From: a bacterium
Lineage (GTDB): Bacteria; UBP15; UBA6099
Direction: 5' to 3'
NCBI GenBank assembly: GCA_029564595.1
Contig: JAKQPS010000153.1
Location: 1 to 43,683 of the forward strand
DNA: 43,683 bases
The stretch's first letter is position 1. The number at the start of each line of letters is the position of its first letter. A model generated the notes under the pieces. That model was not told the DNA's origin. It saw only the letters and a program-made list of their open reading frames with translations, and did not search any database. Positions 1-4,614 of the stretch are shown one piece after another. The position numbers and the translations under genes were made by a program.

Positions 1-63
1 GCCTTCACGCGCTTCGCTCAGTATTCGCACTATCTGCTCTTCGGTGTACCTTTTCTTCTTCAT
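1..63 (-). CDS. IS3-family transposase OrfA, N-terminal fragment cut by the window edge
   Basis: Only the first 21 codons lie in the window. They translate to MKKKRYTEEQIVRILSEARE plus a glycine, which matches the conserved start of the helix-turn-helix OrfA protein of IS3-type elements. In that family OrfA binds the element ends and is joined to the OrfB integrase by a programmed frameshift; neither the rest of OrfA nor OrfB can be seen here. The ATG at 63 is preceded by a purine-rich stretch (GGGGGTAG) that could serve as a ribosome site. The identification rests on the peptide match alone; whether the copy is intact depends on sequence left of position 1. Confidence 0.8.
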   Translation of the reverse strand, partial: MKKKRYTEEQIVRILSEAREG

Positions 64-143
64 TCCATGCTACCCCCGTTAGGCTATATTTTACTGCTTT
101 CCTAACTTTCCGGGTGGTACTGTTTTCGGGGCGCATGTCCACA
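1..143 (-). mobile_element. Right-hand edge of an IS3-type insertion sequence
   Basis: Read on the minus strand, the sequence from 143 begins TGTGGACATGCGCCCCGA and leads after about 80 bases into the OrfA start at 63. A terminal repeat starting TG and a short untranslated leader before OrfA fit IS3-type ends. The exact boundary is a guess because the other terminal repeat is outside the window. It borders the AT-rich island at 150-3500. Confidence 0.45.
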
Positions 144-206
144 CCGCAAAATGACTAATGGATTGGAATAATAAATATGAGGTCTTGATACATTTCGGAG
201 CAAATC

Positions 207-296
207 ATGTTCCTAGTGCTTTATCAAGTTGGCATTGATGGCGATGGCGACGAATATGGATGGGAAAGTGTGTGCAGTTACGGAATTATAATGTAG
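207..296 (+). CDS. Possible 29-residue small ORF upstream of the membrane protein
   Basis: An ATG at 207 is preceded by CGGAGCAAATC, giving a GGAG ribosome site at normal spacing, and the frame runs 29 codons to TAG at 294-296. The peptide has a hydrophobic start (MFLVLYQVGI), then a DGDGDEYGW stretch. It may be a leader peptide for the membrane protein starting 36 bases later, a remnant of a broken gene, or chance. I recognise no family. Confidence 0.2.
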   Translation: MFLVLYQVGIDGDGDEYGWESVCSYGIIM

Positions 297-332
297 CTTT
301 TCGTTCGCAAATTTAATGTTGCGAGTACATTG

Positions 333-1310
333 ATGAACACAAATGACAAGCGCCGCTCAAGAAAGTGGTTTTTATTATACGGCCTGATGCTGGGAGCCGT
401 CCACTTTGTCGCCTTTTCAATATATTCCGTCGGGTTTCTGATATCCGCCAACCAGTTTTCTTTCCCCTCTCTTCTTTTGAGACTAGCCGTCGGTCTACTG
501 AACAGCTTGACTGTTTATGTTATACTCGGCGGCATTATATGGTACATTGTTTCACAAATAAAGTTGCGTATATTATTTTGGTTGTCAATTTTATACTCCA
601 TAATTCATGTTGTCTTGACTGGCTTCAAAAGCATTCATTCAAATCCTATTTTGAATTCAACTTATTGTGGTTACAATAATGATATTATTGATTATTCATG
701 CTGGCCGTCTTATTGGGAACGGCTTATTATCAGTGTGTTATTATTTTATTTGCTTTCACGAACCATTGAATATTTTTTGAATCTTAAAGCATCACATAAC
801 AAATCTGAATCGCAGAAATCAACACAAATAGAGAATAAACAGTTTATTAACATTCGACGTATGATGATATGGGGGCTTTATGGAGGCGTATTGTGGTCGT
901 TTCTGATCGTGGCCATATACATATACGTATTTGCTATTGGTCAATACTTCGTTTTACACCGCGATCCAGACATTACGATATTCACTTATCTGACTAAAGA
1001 ACATATAATCAATTACATATTTTATTGTTTGCCTTATGGTATCACTGTTGGAGTCGTCTTTTACTCTATCAAGACTGTGTTTCAATATATCCTATTTTTT
1101 GTTTTTATCCCGTTTGGACTTGCAACATCAAGAGGGATGCTACTATTGCTGACCAAAGGTCCTTACTTTCCAGTTAAATGCGACGCAAACAATGTATGCG
1201 GGTTAAATAGCATTGATATATTATTTGTCCAATATTTGCCTTTTGCTTTTTTGCTTTTCTTAATATTGCCAGACATTGTTACAGGAATCAAAAAGATGAT
1301 AAACGAATAG
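333..1310 (+). CDS. Unrecognised multi-pass membrane protein
   Basis: This is a 325-residue protein with about seven or eight long hydrophobic stretches (for example near residues 12-36, 46-75, 80-100, 130-148, 180-205, 230-270 and 295-315), so it should sit in the cytoplasmic membrane. A hydrophilic, lysine- and glutamate-rich loop lies near residues 153-175. I see no catalytic motif and no family signature. The ATG at 333 is preferred over the TTG just before it; the ribosome site is weak. Its coding sequence is strikingly AT-rich next to the GC-rich genes from 4.9 kb onward, and it lies between an IS3 edge and a MITE-like repeat, which suggests recent acquisition. Function unknown. Confidence 0.7.
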   Translation: MNTNDKRRSRKWFLLYGLMLGAVHFVAFSIYSVGFLISANQFSFPSLLLRLAVGLLNSLTVYVILGGIIWYIVSQIKLRILFWLSILYSIIHVVLTGFKSIHSNPILNSTYCGYNNDIIDYSCWPSYWERLIISVLLFYLLSRTIEYFLNLKASHNKSESQKSTQIENKQFINIRRMMIWGLYGGVLWSFLIVAIYIYVFAIGQYFVLHRDPDITIFTYLTKEHIINYIFYCLPYGITVGVVFYSIKTVFQYILFFVFIPFGLATSRGMLLLLTKGPYFPVKCDANNVCGLNSIDILFVQYLPFAFLLFLILPDIVTGIKKMINE

Positions 1311-1339
1311 TTTATAATAACTTTTTTGTGCGTGCTTGT

Positions 1340-1486
1340 GATCAGGGGTCAGACCGAGTGATAATTGACATATTAAGCCGATGTTGAATAAGTTCAAAAG
1401 GCGTAGGGGGCAACAACAATGACGAGAACTGCGGGAAAGCAAATATGTGTCAATAGTCTCTGCCTGTGACCCCATTTGACCTGATC
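1340..1486. repeat. REP/MITE-like element with imperfect inverted ends
   Basis: The left arm from 1345 reads GGGGTCAGACCGAGTGATAA followed by TTGACATAT. The right arm (about 1443-1473), reverse complemented, reads GGGGTCACAGGCAGAGACTA followed by TTGACACAT. The two match closely and are flanked further out by GATCAGG (1340-1346) and CCTGATC (1480-1486). About 70 bases lie between the arms and contain no gene. GGGGTCAG plus TTGACATA is a combination I associate with sequences near REP-associated tyrosine transposases, but no such transposase is in the window, so this would be a non-autonomous copy. Confidence 0.5.
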
Positions 1487-1564
1487 GCTTGTTTCTCAAC
1501 AGTCATGTATCGACAGACCCCCGATATTTGGTTTTAAGCTTCTTCGTAGACTTTCTGTCGCAAA

Positions 1565-1969
1565 TCAAATGCTTTCATATAATACCGCAGTTGGTATCCC
1601 ATCAAAATAACAAAAAGATTGGGGAGGGTGGAAGTCCTCTATAGCATCTTGAGGATTAATTGGTTCTTTAAATAATTTGAGTTTTTTGATTTCAAGGGCA
1701 TAACCTTTTGATTTTCCGTCAAAATAACAGAAAAAGTCATCTTTGCTTATTCCGGCCTTGCTTTTAAAATTGTCCCAAAGTGATTCAGGGGTGTCAGTGA
1801 TTATCTTCCCGACATCAAATGCCCCAACTATTTTCTTAGTCGGCGATGATTCATAAATCCATATCGTCTTAACGTCGCTTCTGAATATTGTCTTTCTGAA
1901 CTCGTATTTTTTTGTTCCCTCCAATATTTTTTTCACGTAAATCGGCTTAATTGACAGTAAAGCGTTCAT
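1565..1969 (-). CDS. ASCH/PUA-like domain protein coupled to the PIN-GNAT-EVE gene
   Basis: This 134-residue protein is a single ASCH-type (PUA-like) domain. It shows the N-terminal LLSIKP strand, the GTKKYEFRKTIF segment (residues 18-29) that matches the ASCH GxKxxExR pattern, an YESSPTKKIVGAFDV strand, and a PPQSFCYF end. ASCH domains bind RNA or modified nucleotides; the E. coli member YqfB hydrolyses N4-acetylcytidine, but that activity cannot be assumed here. The ATG at 1969 is chosen because GGAGGTGTCG precedes it. The start lies inside the upstream gene: the two reading frames overlap by 23 bases, so they are almost certainly translated together. The AT-rich composition matches the partner gene. 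Likely role: nucleic-acid or modified-base reader, or an enzyme working with its partner. Confidence 0.8.
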   Translation of the reverse strand: MNALLSIKPIYVKKILEGTKKYEFRKTIFRSDVKTIWIYESSPTKKIVGAFDVGKIITDTPESLWDNFKSKAGISKDDFFCYFDGKSKGYALEIKKLKLFKEPINPQDAIEDFHPPQSFCYFDGIPTAVLYESI

Positions 1970-3452
1970 CGACACCTCCAATCCTTTTCAATATTATATA
2001 CTTTTCATGTGACATTGACTGTATTGTCTGCGGCGGACCATTTAATATGCCTTTTGCCATGAGGGTGTCCAACGCTACAGGGTTAAGATGAAAATGGTAA
2101 TTGAATATGATTACCATCGTAGGGTCAACGGCCATATCTGCGATTTCTTTCTTTGTGTATACGCTCCTTTTACCGACATTCCTTATAATCTCATCCGGGT
2201 CTGTCGTATTGGCGTATACTTTTTCTACAACACCAATTATTGTAATTGCCTTATAATCTTCGGAGCGATAAAAAAGCAAAATATCCCCCGGTTTTAGGCT
2301 TCTTATCCTTGACTTGCTTAAATAAGCTTTTTTAATGGTATTTCTTTCTACAATCATTTCCCCGCTTATTCCGGGCAACATCATCTGTCTATCATCTCTA
2401 TCGATAAATAACCTTTTGTAATATCTAGGTTGAATCGGTACCACAAACTTATCCACATTCAAACCATCGCAAAAACTCGGATAAAACAGTCTAGAGATTT
2501 CAGAAGATGTGGCCCCTTCACGATCAGGCTTAAGTTTTTTCAAATAAATGCTTTCGCCGTCTCCCCTCGTGGCAATTAAAGTAAATCCGAACTCTTCAAT
2601 CAACTCAATTAAAAGATCATCATTTTTAGTGAAATGCGTCAGATATATTTCGTCGATATCATTTTTCATAGCATACTCGATAGATATTTTTATAAATAGC
2701 TCGCCAATTTTGAGGCCAGTAGCTGAAACGATGAAAGTGCATATTTTTAACCTCCTTTTTTTAGGTTGCGGCGGGATAGCGGCAATCTCCTCATCCTCGT
2801 CCTTCAATATTAACAAAGCGCCTATGCCTTGTTCTGTATCATATACCCAAGCCTTTCTTCCCTCGCGAGATATTTTTATCCACCAATCTCTAAAGGCGGT
2901 GCTTTCGGTTCCGGTTTCATAATCACCCTTTAATGTGTCTAATATCGGATCATCATAATTCAGACTTGCAATCGATACATGATTTATTTCGGAAGGTAGT
3001 AAAACCATTTCGTCTTTTTCATATTCAATAAAAAACGCTAAAGCTTCTTTTGCATTAAACACCCTGTCTGATATCCCCAAATGTTGAGCTTTTCGATGAA
3101 TGGCTCTATCTTCAGTAACGAAAAATACAAACGCATTTTTGTATATATTAAACAAAAGCACATTATCAACATAATCGTGCTCATTTGAAGGAGGCCCTAT
3201 AGTTTTTTCAAATTCACTACCTGTTTCAGGAATAAGGGTTTCACTGCAAATAGGATAATTTTCAATTTTTGACAATACTACTCTTTTCCGCTTCTCATCT
3301 TTGTCTTTTTTCACTTCCTCAATTGATAGCTTATGGACAAATATGCTGACACCCTGCTTATTAAGCAATTGGAATAATTTTGAAAGATCAGAGGGAGCTA
3401 CTTTATTATCTTCTCTGTATATAAAAATGTTCGTGTCAATCAATATGCGCAT
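1947..3452 (-). CDS. PIN nuclease - GNAT-like - EVE-like fusion protein
   Basis: This 501-residue protein appears to have three domains. Residues 1-140 are PIN-like: MRILIDTNIF with Asp6 and Asn8, an SIEEVKKD segment (Glu45/Glu46), VDNVLL (Asp96) and FVTEDRAIHRKA (Asp115), which supply the expected acidic metal-binding set for an RNase. Residues about 185-305 look like a GNAT acetyltransferase: a strand ending ICTFIVS, then GLKIGELFIKISIEYA resembling the acetyl-CoA loop and helix, then a C-terminal EEFGF strand. Residues about 375-495 resemble an EVE/PUA-like reader, with SLKPGDILLFYRS and a VVEKVYANT strand. The ATG at 3452 has only a distant AAAGG upstream. The gene is AT-rich and overlaps the ASCH gene. 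The PIN part is the surest; the GNAT and EVE calls come from pattern recognition. Confidence 0.7.
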   Translation of the reverse strand: MRILIDTNIFIYREDNKVAPSDLSKLFQLLNKQGVSIFVHKLSIEEVKKDKDEKRKRVVLSKIENYPICSETLIPETGSEFEKTIGPPSNEHDYVDNVLLFNIYKNAFVFFVTEDRAIHRKAQHLGISDRVFNAKEALAFFIEYEKDEMVLLPSEINHVSIASLNYDDPILDTLKGDYETGTESTAFRDWWIKISREGRKAWVYDTEQGIGALLILKDEDEEIAAIPPQPKKRRLKICTFIVSATGLKIGELFIKISIEYAMKNDIDEIYLTHFTKNDDLLIELIEEFGFTLIATRGDGESIYLKKLKPDREGATSSEISRLFYPSFCDGLNVDKFVVPIQPRYYKRLFIDRDDRQMMLPGISGEMIVERNTIKKAYLSKSRIRSLKPGDILLFYRSEDYKAITIIGVVEKVYANTTDPDEIIRNVGKRSVYTKKEIADMAVDPTMVIIFNYHFHLNPVALDTLMAKGILNGPPQTIQSMSHEKYIILKRIGGVDERFTVN

Positions 3453-3481
3453 TATATATATTTAACCTTTGTTTATGCCTG

Positions 3482-3500
3482 ACGCACATATAATGTGCGT
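3482..3500. promoter_or_regulatory. Perfect 8-bp palindrome upstream of the PIN-GNAT-EVE gene
   Basis: ACGCACAT at 3482-3489 is followed by ATA and by its exact reverse complement ATGTGCGT at 3493-3500. It lies about 30 bases upstream of the PIN-GNAT-EVE start codon at 3452. A palindrome in that place could be an operator for self-regulation of the two-gene module or a hairpin in its leader. TATAAT occurs inside it on the plus strand. No partner DNA-binding protein is recognisable, so the role is inferred from position only. Confidence 0.4.
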
Positions 3501-3871
3501 TCTCGCGCGACTTCTTATCAAGGCCCCGGTTCAGTTGTGTAGCTCGCAAACACCTCCCATAATCCGGCGGTATCACTGATTAGCAATATGCGTCTTTTTT
3601 CTATGCGACTCATTTTTCCTTATGTCGCTACAATATCATCTGTATTGCGGTTGCGCAAGCGCTTTGTGACAATTTTGCGCCCTCGGTTGAAGCGTGTCAG
3701 CGGAAATATCTCAAAATCCTTCGTTCGGCCTCCCGGTGTAGTCGGCTGAAGGCGGATTCGCAATTTGTGAAAATGTGGTTTGCTGCGGCTTGAAAAAGAA
3801 TAATTCGAGATGGGTTTCTCTGTGGGACGCTCCTCTATTGTCGGTCGCATGGTGACAAGTTTTTGCGGGAC

Positions 3872-3920
3872 GGCGAAAAGAGGGTACAGGCATCGTTGTG
3901 ACGCTCGCTGCCAGTCCCCT
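3872..3920 (+). repeat. 48-base intergenic repeat, copy 1
   Basis: Begins GGCGAAAAGAGGGTACAGGC, continues ATCG, and ends GCTGCCAGTCCCCT. It matches the copy at 4133-4181 at nearly every position and the inverted copy at 4503-4550. No coding sense is apparent. Confidence 0.8.
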
Positions 3921-3927
3921 CTTCCAT

Positions 3928-3952
3928 CGTTGCCAAGGTCTCCTTGGCAACG
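3928..3952. repeat. GCCAAGG palindrome, copy 1
   Basis: CGTTGCCAAGG, a TCT loop, then CCTTGGCAACG: an 11-base perfect stem. Eight bases separate it from the 48-base repeat at 3872-3920. Confidence 0.8.
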
Positions 3953-3994
3953 AAAGAAGAGGAAGCGGTGAAAGCGGAGCTTTCGGCCTATCCA

Positions 3995-4015
3995 TTGCCA
4001 AGGTGACCTTGGCAA
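3995..4015. repeat. GCCAAGG palindrome, copy 2
   Basis: TTGCCAAGG, TGA loop, CCTTGGCAA. The stem is conserved with copies 1 and 3 while the three-base loop differs (TGA against TCT). Confidence 0.75.
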
Positions 4016-4132
4016 CGATGATAACGGGGCGCGCTGCTTTTGCACCCACAAGCAAAAAACGCTTGAAGGTGGCGCCCGGCATTGGTGAAAGTTTTCAACG
4101 GTCTGTCTCGGCTTGACTCAAGAATATGAGGC

Positions 4133-4583: not shown

Positions 4584-4614
4584 CATCGTTGCCAAGGTCT
4601 CCTTGGCAACGATG
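4584..4614. repeat. GCCAAGG palindrome, copy 3
   Basis: CATCGTTGCCAAGG, TCT loop, CCTTGGCAACGATG: a 14-base perfect stem, the longest of the three copies. Confidence 0.8.

Follow-up and report, generated by a model that had tools for sequence, protein, structure and literature searches.

Fusions of an EVE domain with a GNAT-like domain, often carrying an N-terminal PIN domain, make up the 'purple' EVE cluster of Bell et al., 2020 (PMC7641849), who found an ASCH gene as their operon partner in nearly every case, the PIN-bearing form near type I restriction-modification (RM) systems and the PIN-less form in prophages, and who predicted a toxin-antitoxin (TA) function for these (PIN)-GNAT-EVE + ASCH operons; no module of the cluster had been tested by then. 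The layout is credited, in the same paper, to Iyer et al., 2013. The family is also catalogued by PADLOC as the candidate system PDC-M11, and the record of Escherichia phage PhiR47_2 (PV340567.1) annotates a PIN-less pair, both members of which match the PADLOC PDC-M11A/B models, as GevT toxin and GevA antitoxin. These names stand as record annotation only, with no paper found behind them in the searchable literature. Nor did a search of that literature find a bench experiment on any PDC-M11 family member, so that, as far as it shows, a widespread family has apparently gone without bench tests. Two proteins related in fold to the ASCH partner have been characterized: YqfB, an ac4C amidohydrolase with Thr24 as its essential nucleophile (PMC6972931), and ZmASCH (ZMO0922, PDB 5GUQ/5GUS), in which Tyr47 and Ser128 matter for RNA binding and weak cleavage (PMC5615036).

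Relation to the PDC-M11 family

The window analyzed here, a stretch of 43,683 nucleotides from a bacterial contig, carries two overlapping genes, A and B, near one end (Table 1). Both reading frames are intact at the coordinates given in an earlier note on this DNA. A matches PDC-M11A at E 1.4e-146 over residues 1-500 of 501, and B matches PDC-M11B at E 6e-51; both matches are nearly full length and we found no difference from the catalogued system. It is therefore near certain that the pair belongs to the PDC-M11, or (PIN)-GNAT-EVE + ASCH, family. It is an ordinary, intact member of a catalogued candidate anti-phage TA family rather than a new family, and the earlier note's impression that no such layout had been described does not hold, since the layout is covered by the PADLOC models and set out by Bell et al., 2020 (PMC7641849).

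Table 1. Positions of the two genes, their domains, and their junction in the window.
Feature	Position	Strand	Description and basis
Gene A	1947-3452	minus	ATG start; 501-aa PIN-GNAT-PUA (EVE/ASCH-like) fusion, PDC-M11A; open reading frame, translation
PIN domain of A	3003-3452	minus	Residues 1-150; acids Asp6, Glu46, Asp96, Asp115; Pfam, conserved acids
GNAT-like domain of A	2523-2990	minus	Residues 155-310; GxKxGE replaces canonical motif A
C-terminal PUA-like (EVE/ASCH-type) domain of A	1977-2507	minus	Residues 316-492
Gene B	1565-1969	minus	134-aa ASCH protein, PDC-M11B; ATG at 1969
A/B overlap	1947-1969	minus	Exactly 23 nt; sequence
GGAGG Shine-Dalgarno of B	1975-1979	minus	Within A codons for Gly-Gly; five bases before B ATG

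The window pair shares with the operons of Bell et al. its domain order, its partner, and its gene order (as in many archaea). The RM association of those operons holds among the pair's relatives, whereas no RM gene was found beside the window pair, where one side is out of view because only 1.5 kb separates the genes from the contig end; no AAA_17 ATPase gene was found beside it either. With GevT/GevA the pair has in common homologous GNAT-PUA and ASCH proteins, the gene order, and the 23-nt overlap, but GevT lacks the PIN domain of A.

Domains and conserved residues

The PIN domain of A is recognized by Pfam PIN_12 (2.6e-5) and PIN_3 (0.006), both under the curated cut-offs, and PIN_3 matches 11 of 61 relatives of A, at best at 3.8e-7. 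The four acidic active-site residues of a PIN-domain RNase are all present in A: Asp6, Asp96, and Asp115 are kept in 56-57 of 57 aligned PIN-bearing relatives, and position 46 is D or E in 55 of the 57. Of the acids proposed earlier from the sequence, these four stand, with Glu46 and not Glu45 as the second of them.

For the GNAT-like domain, a profile of 61 relatives matches Naa50 at 4.5e-6, Foldseek matches the AlphaFold model of A (mean pLDDT 90.3) to many GNAT folds at 1e-4 to 1e-5, and Pfam Acetyltransf_1 is found in 17 of the 61 relatives (best 2e-10). Profile, model, and Foldseek thus agree with the note that a GNAT fold is present; the domain also has a loop like those that bind AcCoA. 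The catalytic signatures of canonical GNAT acetyltransferases, a class that includes the GNAT toxins of aminoacyl-tRNA, are altered in the alignment to Naa50. Lys248 stands at a Gly position of motif A (R/Q-x-x-G-x-G/A), which is Lys in 55 of 57 PIN-bearing relatives and Leu in four PIN-less ones, and the Tyr of FYxxxGF is replaced by Ile285 in the window protein, by Ile, Leu, Cys, or Val in all 57 PIN-bearing relatives, and by Phe in the PIN-less ones. Judged from its sequence, the core may bind CoA, but one cannot count on it to transfer acetyl groups in the textbook way.

The C-terminal domain of A was originally called an EVE/PUA-like reader. The PUA-like fold is confirmed, but Pfam EVE (PF01878) scores 0.0013 and 19.2 bits against a cut-off of 23 and is found in 14 of 61 relatives (E 0.001), and the best solved fold is that of ZmASCH rather than a classical EVE domain (Foldseek E 2.5e-7, TM 0.81 by target). 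Structure models and Foldseek thus find, in residues 185-495, the folds whose absence the note had named as a refutation. In hhalign the domain also shares 130 aligned columns with the ASCH partner (E 2.7e-4, at a modest probability of 42%), and its Tyr395 and Ser/Thr476 correspond to the RNA-cleft Tyr and Ser of ZmASCH.

B is an ASCH protein, as had been read from its sequence: its model (mean pLDDT 95.0) superposes on ZmASCH with 1.6 A rmsd over 125 columns, the two are homologous at E 1e-29 with about 28% identity, and Pfam ASCH scores 20.2 bits, slightly below its cut-off of 21.2. The ASCH motif GxKxxxxR is present (Gly18, Lys20, Arg25). Tyr39 and Ser118, equivalent to Tyr47 and Ser128 of ZmASCH, occur in all 54 partners compared. 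The fold also resembles YqfB, weakly (TM 0.5-0.7). When Lys20 and Arg25 of B are aligned to Lys21 and Arg26 of YqfB by their equal spacing, the position of Thr24, the nucleophile of the Thr-Lys-Glu triad, is taken by Glu23 in 54 of 54 partners. We note separately that 52 of the 54 match NCBIfam NF008917, a model for ribosomal protein L22 in fusion with an unknown domain; fusions of this ASCH-like domain to a ribosomal protein therefore exist too.

Junction, linkage, and distribution

The 23-base overlap and the GGAGG ahead of the ASCH gene, both pointed out in the note, are present in the sequence. Through the overlap, the end of A (DERFTVN-stop) doubles, in a different frame, as the first residues of B (MNALLSIK). 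B could be opened upstream at a TTG (1981), which is probably not its start because homologues begin at the Met of the conserved ATG. Exactly the same overlap length occurs in 49 of 73 non-redundant loci with A followed by B, spread over ANME archaea, Altiarchaeales, haloarchaea, Micrarchaeota, Chloroflexota, and Melainabacteria as well as a Methanothermobacter prophage and E. coli prophages. Across these loci the tail of A, GG[IV]DERFT[IV][NH]-stop, is the other frame of the ribosome-binding site of B and of its MNxLLSIKP start, and most relatives have purine-rich Shine-Dalgarno-like strings where the window has GGAGG. In lineages without the overlap A also lacks this tail, so the DNA, and not the protein, is the most likely cause of the tail's conservation. 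A candidate RNA structure at the junction, as a means of translational control, was rejected because shuffled versions of the region fold at least as well (z 1.07).

The two genes are nearly always linked, contrary to the other refutation named in the note, that homologues would usually have them unlinked. Among 386 genomes, 10 carry A (counted at E < 1e-90) and all 10 carry B; across 78 non-redundant loci, retrieved with patterns taken only from A and counted after removal of near-copies, every case without B is one in which the DNA runs out. Evolutionary distances of A and B correlate (mirror-tree r 0.73), a value reached in 0 of 2000 permutations, none of which exceeded 0.26. In the 386-genome survey B is strong in 12 genomes, and two of these have it alone, so B may act on its own. 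One scan of species genomes with a seven-sequence alignment confirmed 349 relatives; a single-sequence scan of genome contigs detected none. The PIN-less prophage version is present in 275 of 5,426 complete E. coli genomes. In the tree of A, the window protein lies among archaeal sequences, nearest to Methanophagales (56%), in no well-supported small clade, a placement that is only suggestive of acquisition from archaea. Two loci (L052:2348-4048 and L075:5661-6935) have longer proteins beside the pair in which an ASCH-like domain is joined to further GNAT/PUA-like stretches, possibly a further fusion form of the family, and on the minus strand of L166, in one genome, ASCH-like, PUA-like, and GNAT proteins are encoded as separate genes in a different neighborhood.

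The PIN domain of A is absent from the prophage clade, where the rest of A is retained and which groups in the tree with PIN-bearing bacterial proteins. In five Methanothrix-group loci it is about 50 residues shorter, with the Asp96 region lost and the remaining active-site motifs partly degenerate. Since two lineages keep the rest of the system while the PIN domain is missing or eroded, the essential unit kept by selection is GNAT-PUA + ASCH, with PIN as an added effector.

The surroundings of the window pair fit the AT-rich composition and the IS3 edge that the note had described as signs of transfer. GC content is 36-42% at positions 1-4000 and about 58% beyond, and the start of an IS3-type orfA, MKKKRYTEEQIVRILSEAREG at position 63 on the minus strand, lies at the contig end in positions 1-140. 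Identical copies of these 140 bases stand at or close to the ends of contigs C88 and C79, so the assembly probably broke at this element. On one side of the pair is an AT-rich gene (333-1310) for a 325-aa multi-pass membrane protein without a match in Pfam, NCBIfam, or PADLOC; on the other is non-coding DNA that holds palindromic repeats. The palindrome CGTTGCCAAGGTCTCCTTGGCAACG, a REP-like or MITE-like repeat, is found at 3928-3952, 3993-4017, and 4587-4611 and has 28 listed sites in the genome (at most 2 mismatches), often paired about 65 bases apart in opposite orientation; sharing of these repeats across about 28 sites indicates that the contig belongs to its bin. Positions 1340-1475 hold an interspersed repeat of roughly 130 bases that has CAGGGGTCAGAC and GTGACCCC-like ends; the same genome contains about 8 more copies at 75-87% identity.

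Toxin-antitoxin and other readings

The explanation we favor, and think fairly likely to be right, is a mobile TA-like defense pair in which A is the toxic or effector side, B restrains it, and PIN is an accessory RNase. The PUA-like domain of A would bind (probably modified) nucleic acid, the GNAT-like core would be the essential active or sensing unit, and the PIN domain would be a Mg-dependent RNase that cuts RNA once the complex is released. Made from the overlapping start directly after A, B would restrain it, through direct binding or by competing for its nucleic-acid ligand through the related PUA fold; once infection or the loss of B set A free, RNA damage or translation arrest would stop the phage. 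Here we infer which partner neutralizes and which is neutralized, the ligand, the trigger, and any GNAT chemistry. Several lines of evidence point this way: the match of both the window pair and the GevT toxin/GevA antitoxin pair to PDC-M11A/B; the prediction of TA function for exactly such an operon by Bell et al., 2020 (PMC7641849); the obligate pairing and correlated divergence of A and B; the type I RM genes near relatives; the conserved PIN acids together with the absence or erosion of PIN in two lineages; and the RNA-binding Tyr and Ser of ZmASCH kept in all 54 partners. The defense link suggested in the note also holds up. Against the TA-like reading we count the solo B genes and the lack of an RM gene found here. 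That the toxin gene comes first counts against it as well, since type II TA systems more usually have another order.

The RM neighbors also permit another reading, in which the pair is an RM accessory: A and B would read modified DNA bases, and A would attack RNA or protein when a phage blocks the type I system, so that it would serve as a back-up effector and not as part of a free-standing TA system. In 14 of the 43 PIN-bearing loci whose flanks are adequate, the fetched DNA includes HsdM; several Methanosarcinaceae carry B as a fusion with HsdS, and like associations are reported by Bell et al., 2020 (PMC7641849). However, about two thirds of the PIN-bearing loci show no hsd genes in the fetched DNA, the window's own genome (97% complete) has no HsdM_N match, and PIN-less members live in prophages without RM, so we regard this reading as unlikely, if not strongly so. 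Decidedly unlikely, in our view, is a form of the TA idea in which the GNAT core is no working acetyltransferase but a degenerate sensor that binds CoA or another ligand and so controls an effector bound to nucleic acid, and in which the ASCH antitoxin, descended from a PUA-like domain like the toxin's, blocks it by mimicking the same nucleic-acid contact.

The acetyl-mark idea of the note would have the GNAT write on nucleic acid, the PUA-like domain read, and the ASCH protein erase as YqfB does with ac4C. The GNAT fold and its AcCoA-binding-like loop, the weak likeness of B to YqfB, and the retained GxKxxxxR motif speak for it, but the invariant Glu23 in place of the YqfB nucleophile disfavors erasure, and the altered motif-A Gly and the FYxxxGF Tyr missing throughout weaken the case for writing, for which the fold is present; we give the whole scheme a slim chance. 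Slightly slimmer still is the chance that B is itself the RNase, as weakly reported for ZmASCH, and A its regulator: B is homologous to ZmASCH and conserves its Tyr and Ser, yet ZmASCH activity is weak, its authors find no metal-binding acids (PMC5615036), and PV340567.1 names the ASCH partner as the antitoxin.

The locked 23-nt junction, the dispensable PIN domain, the atypical GNAT motifs, and the two related PUA-like domains that share a Tyr/Ser pair lead to testable predictions about which part of the system is toxic, and a vague 'modified-base' idea is thereby sharpened.
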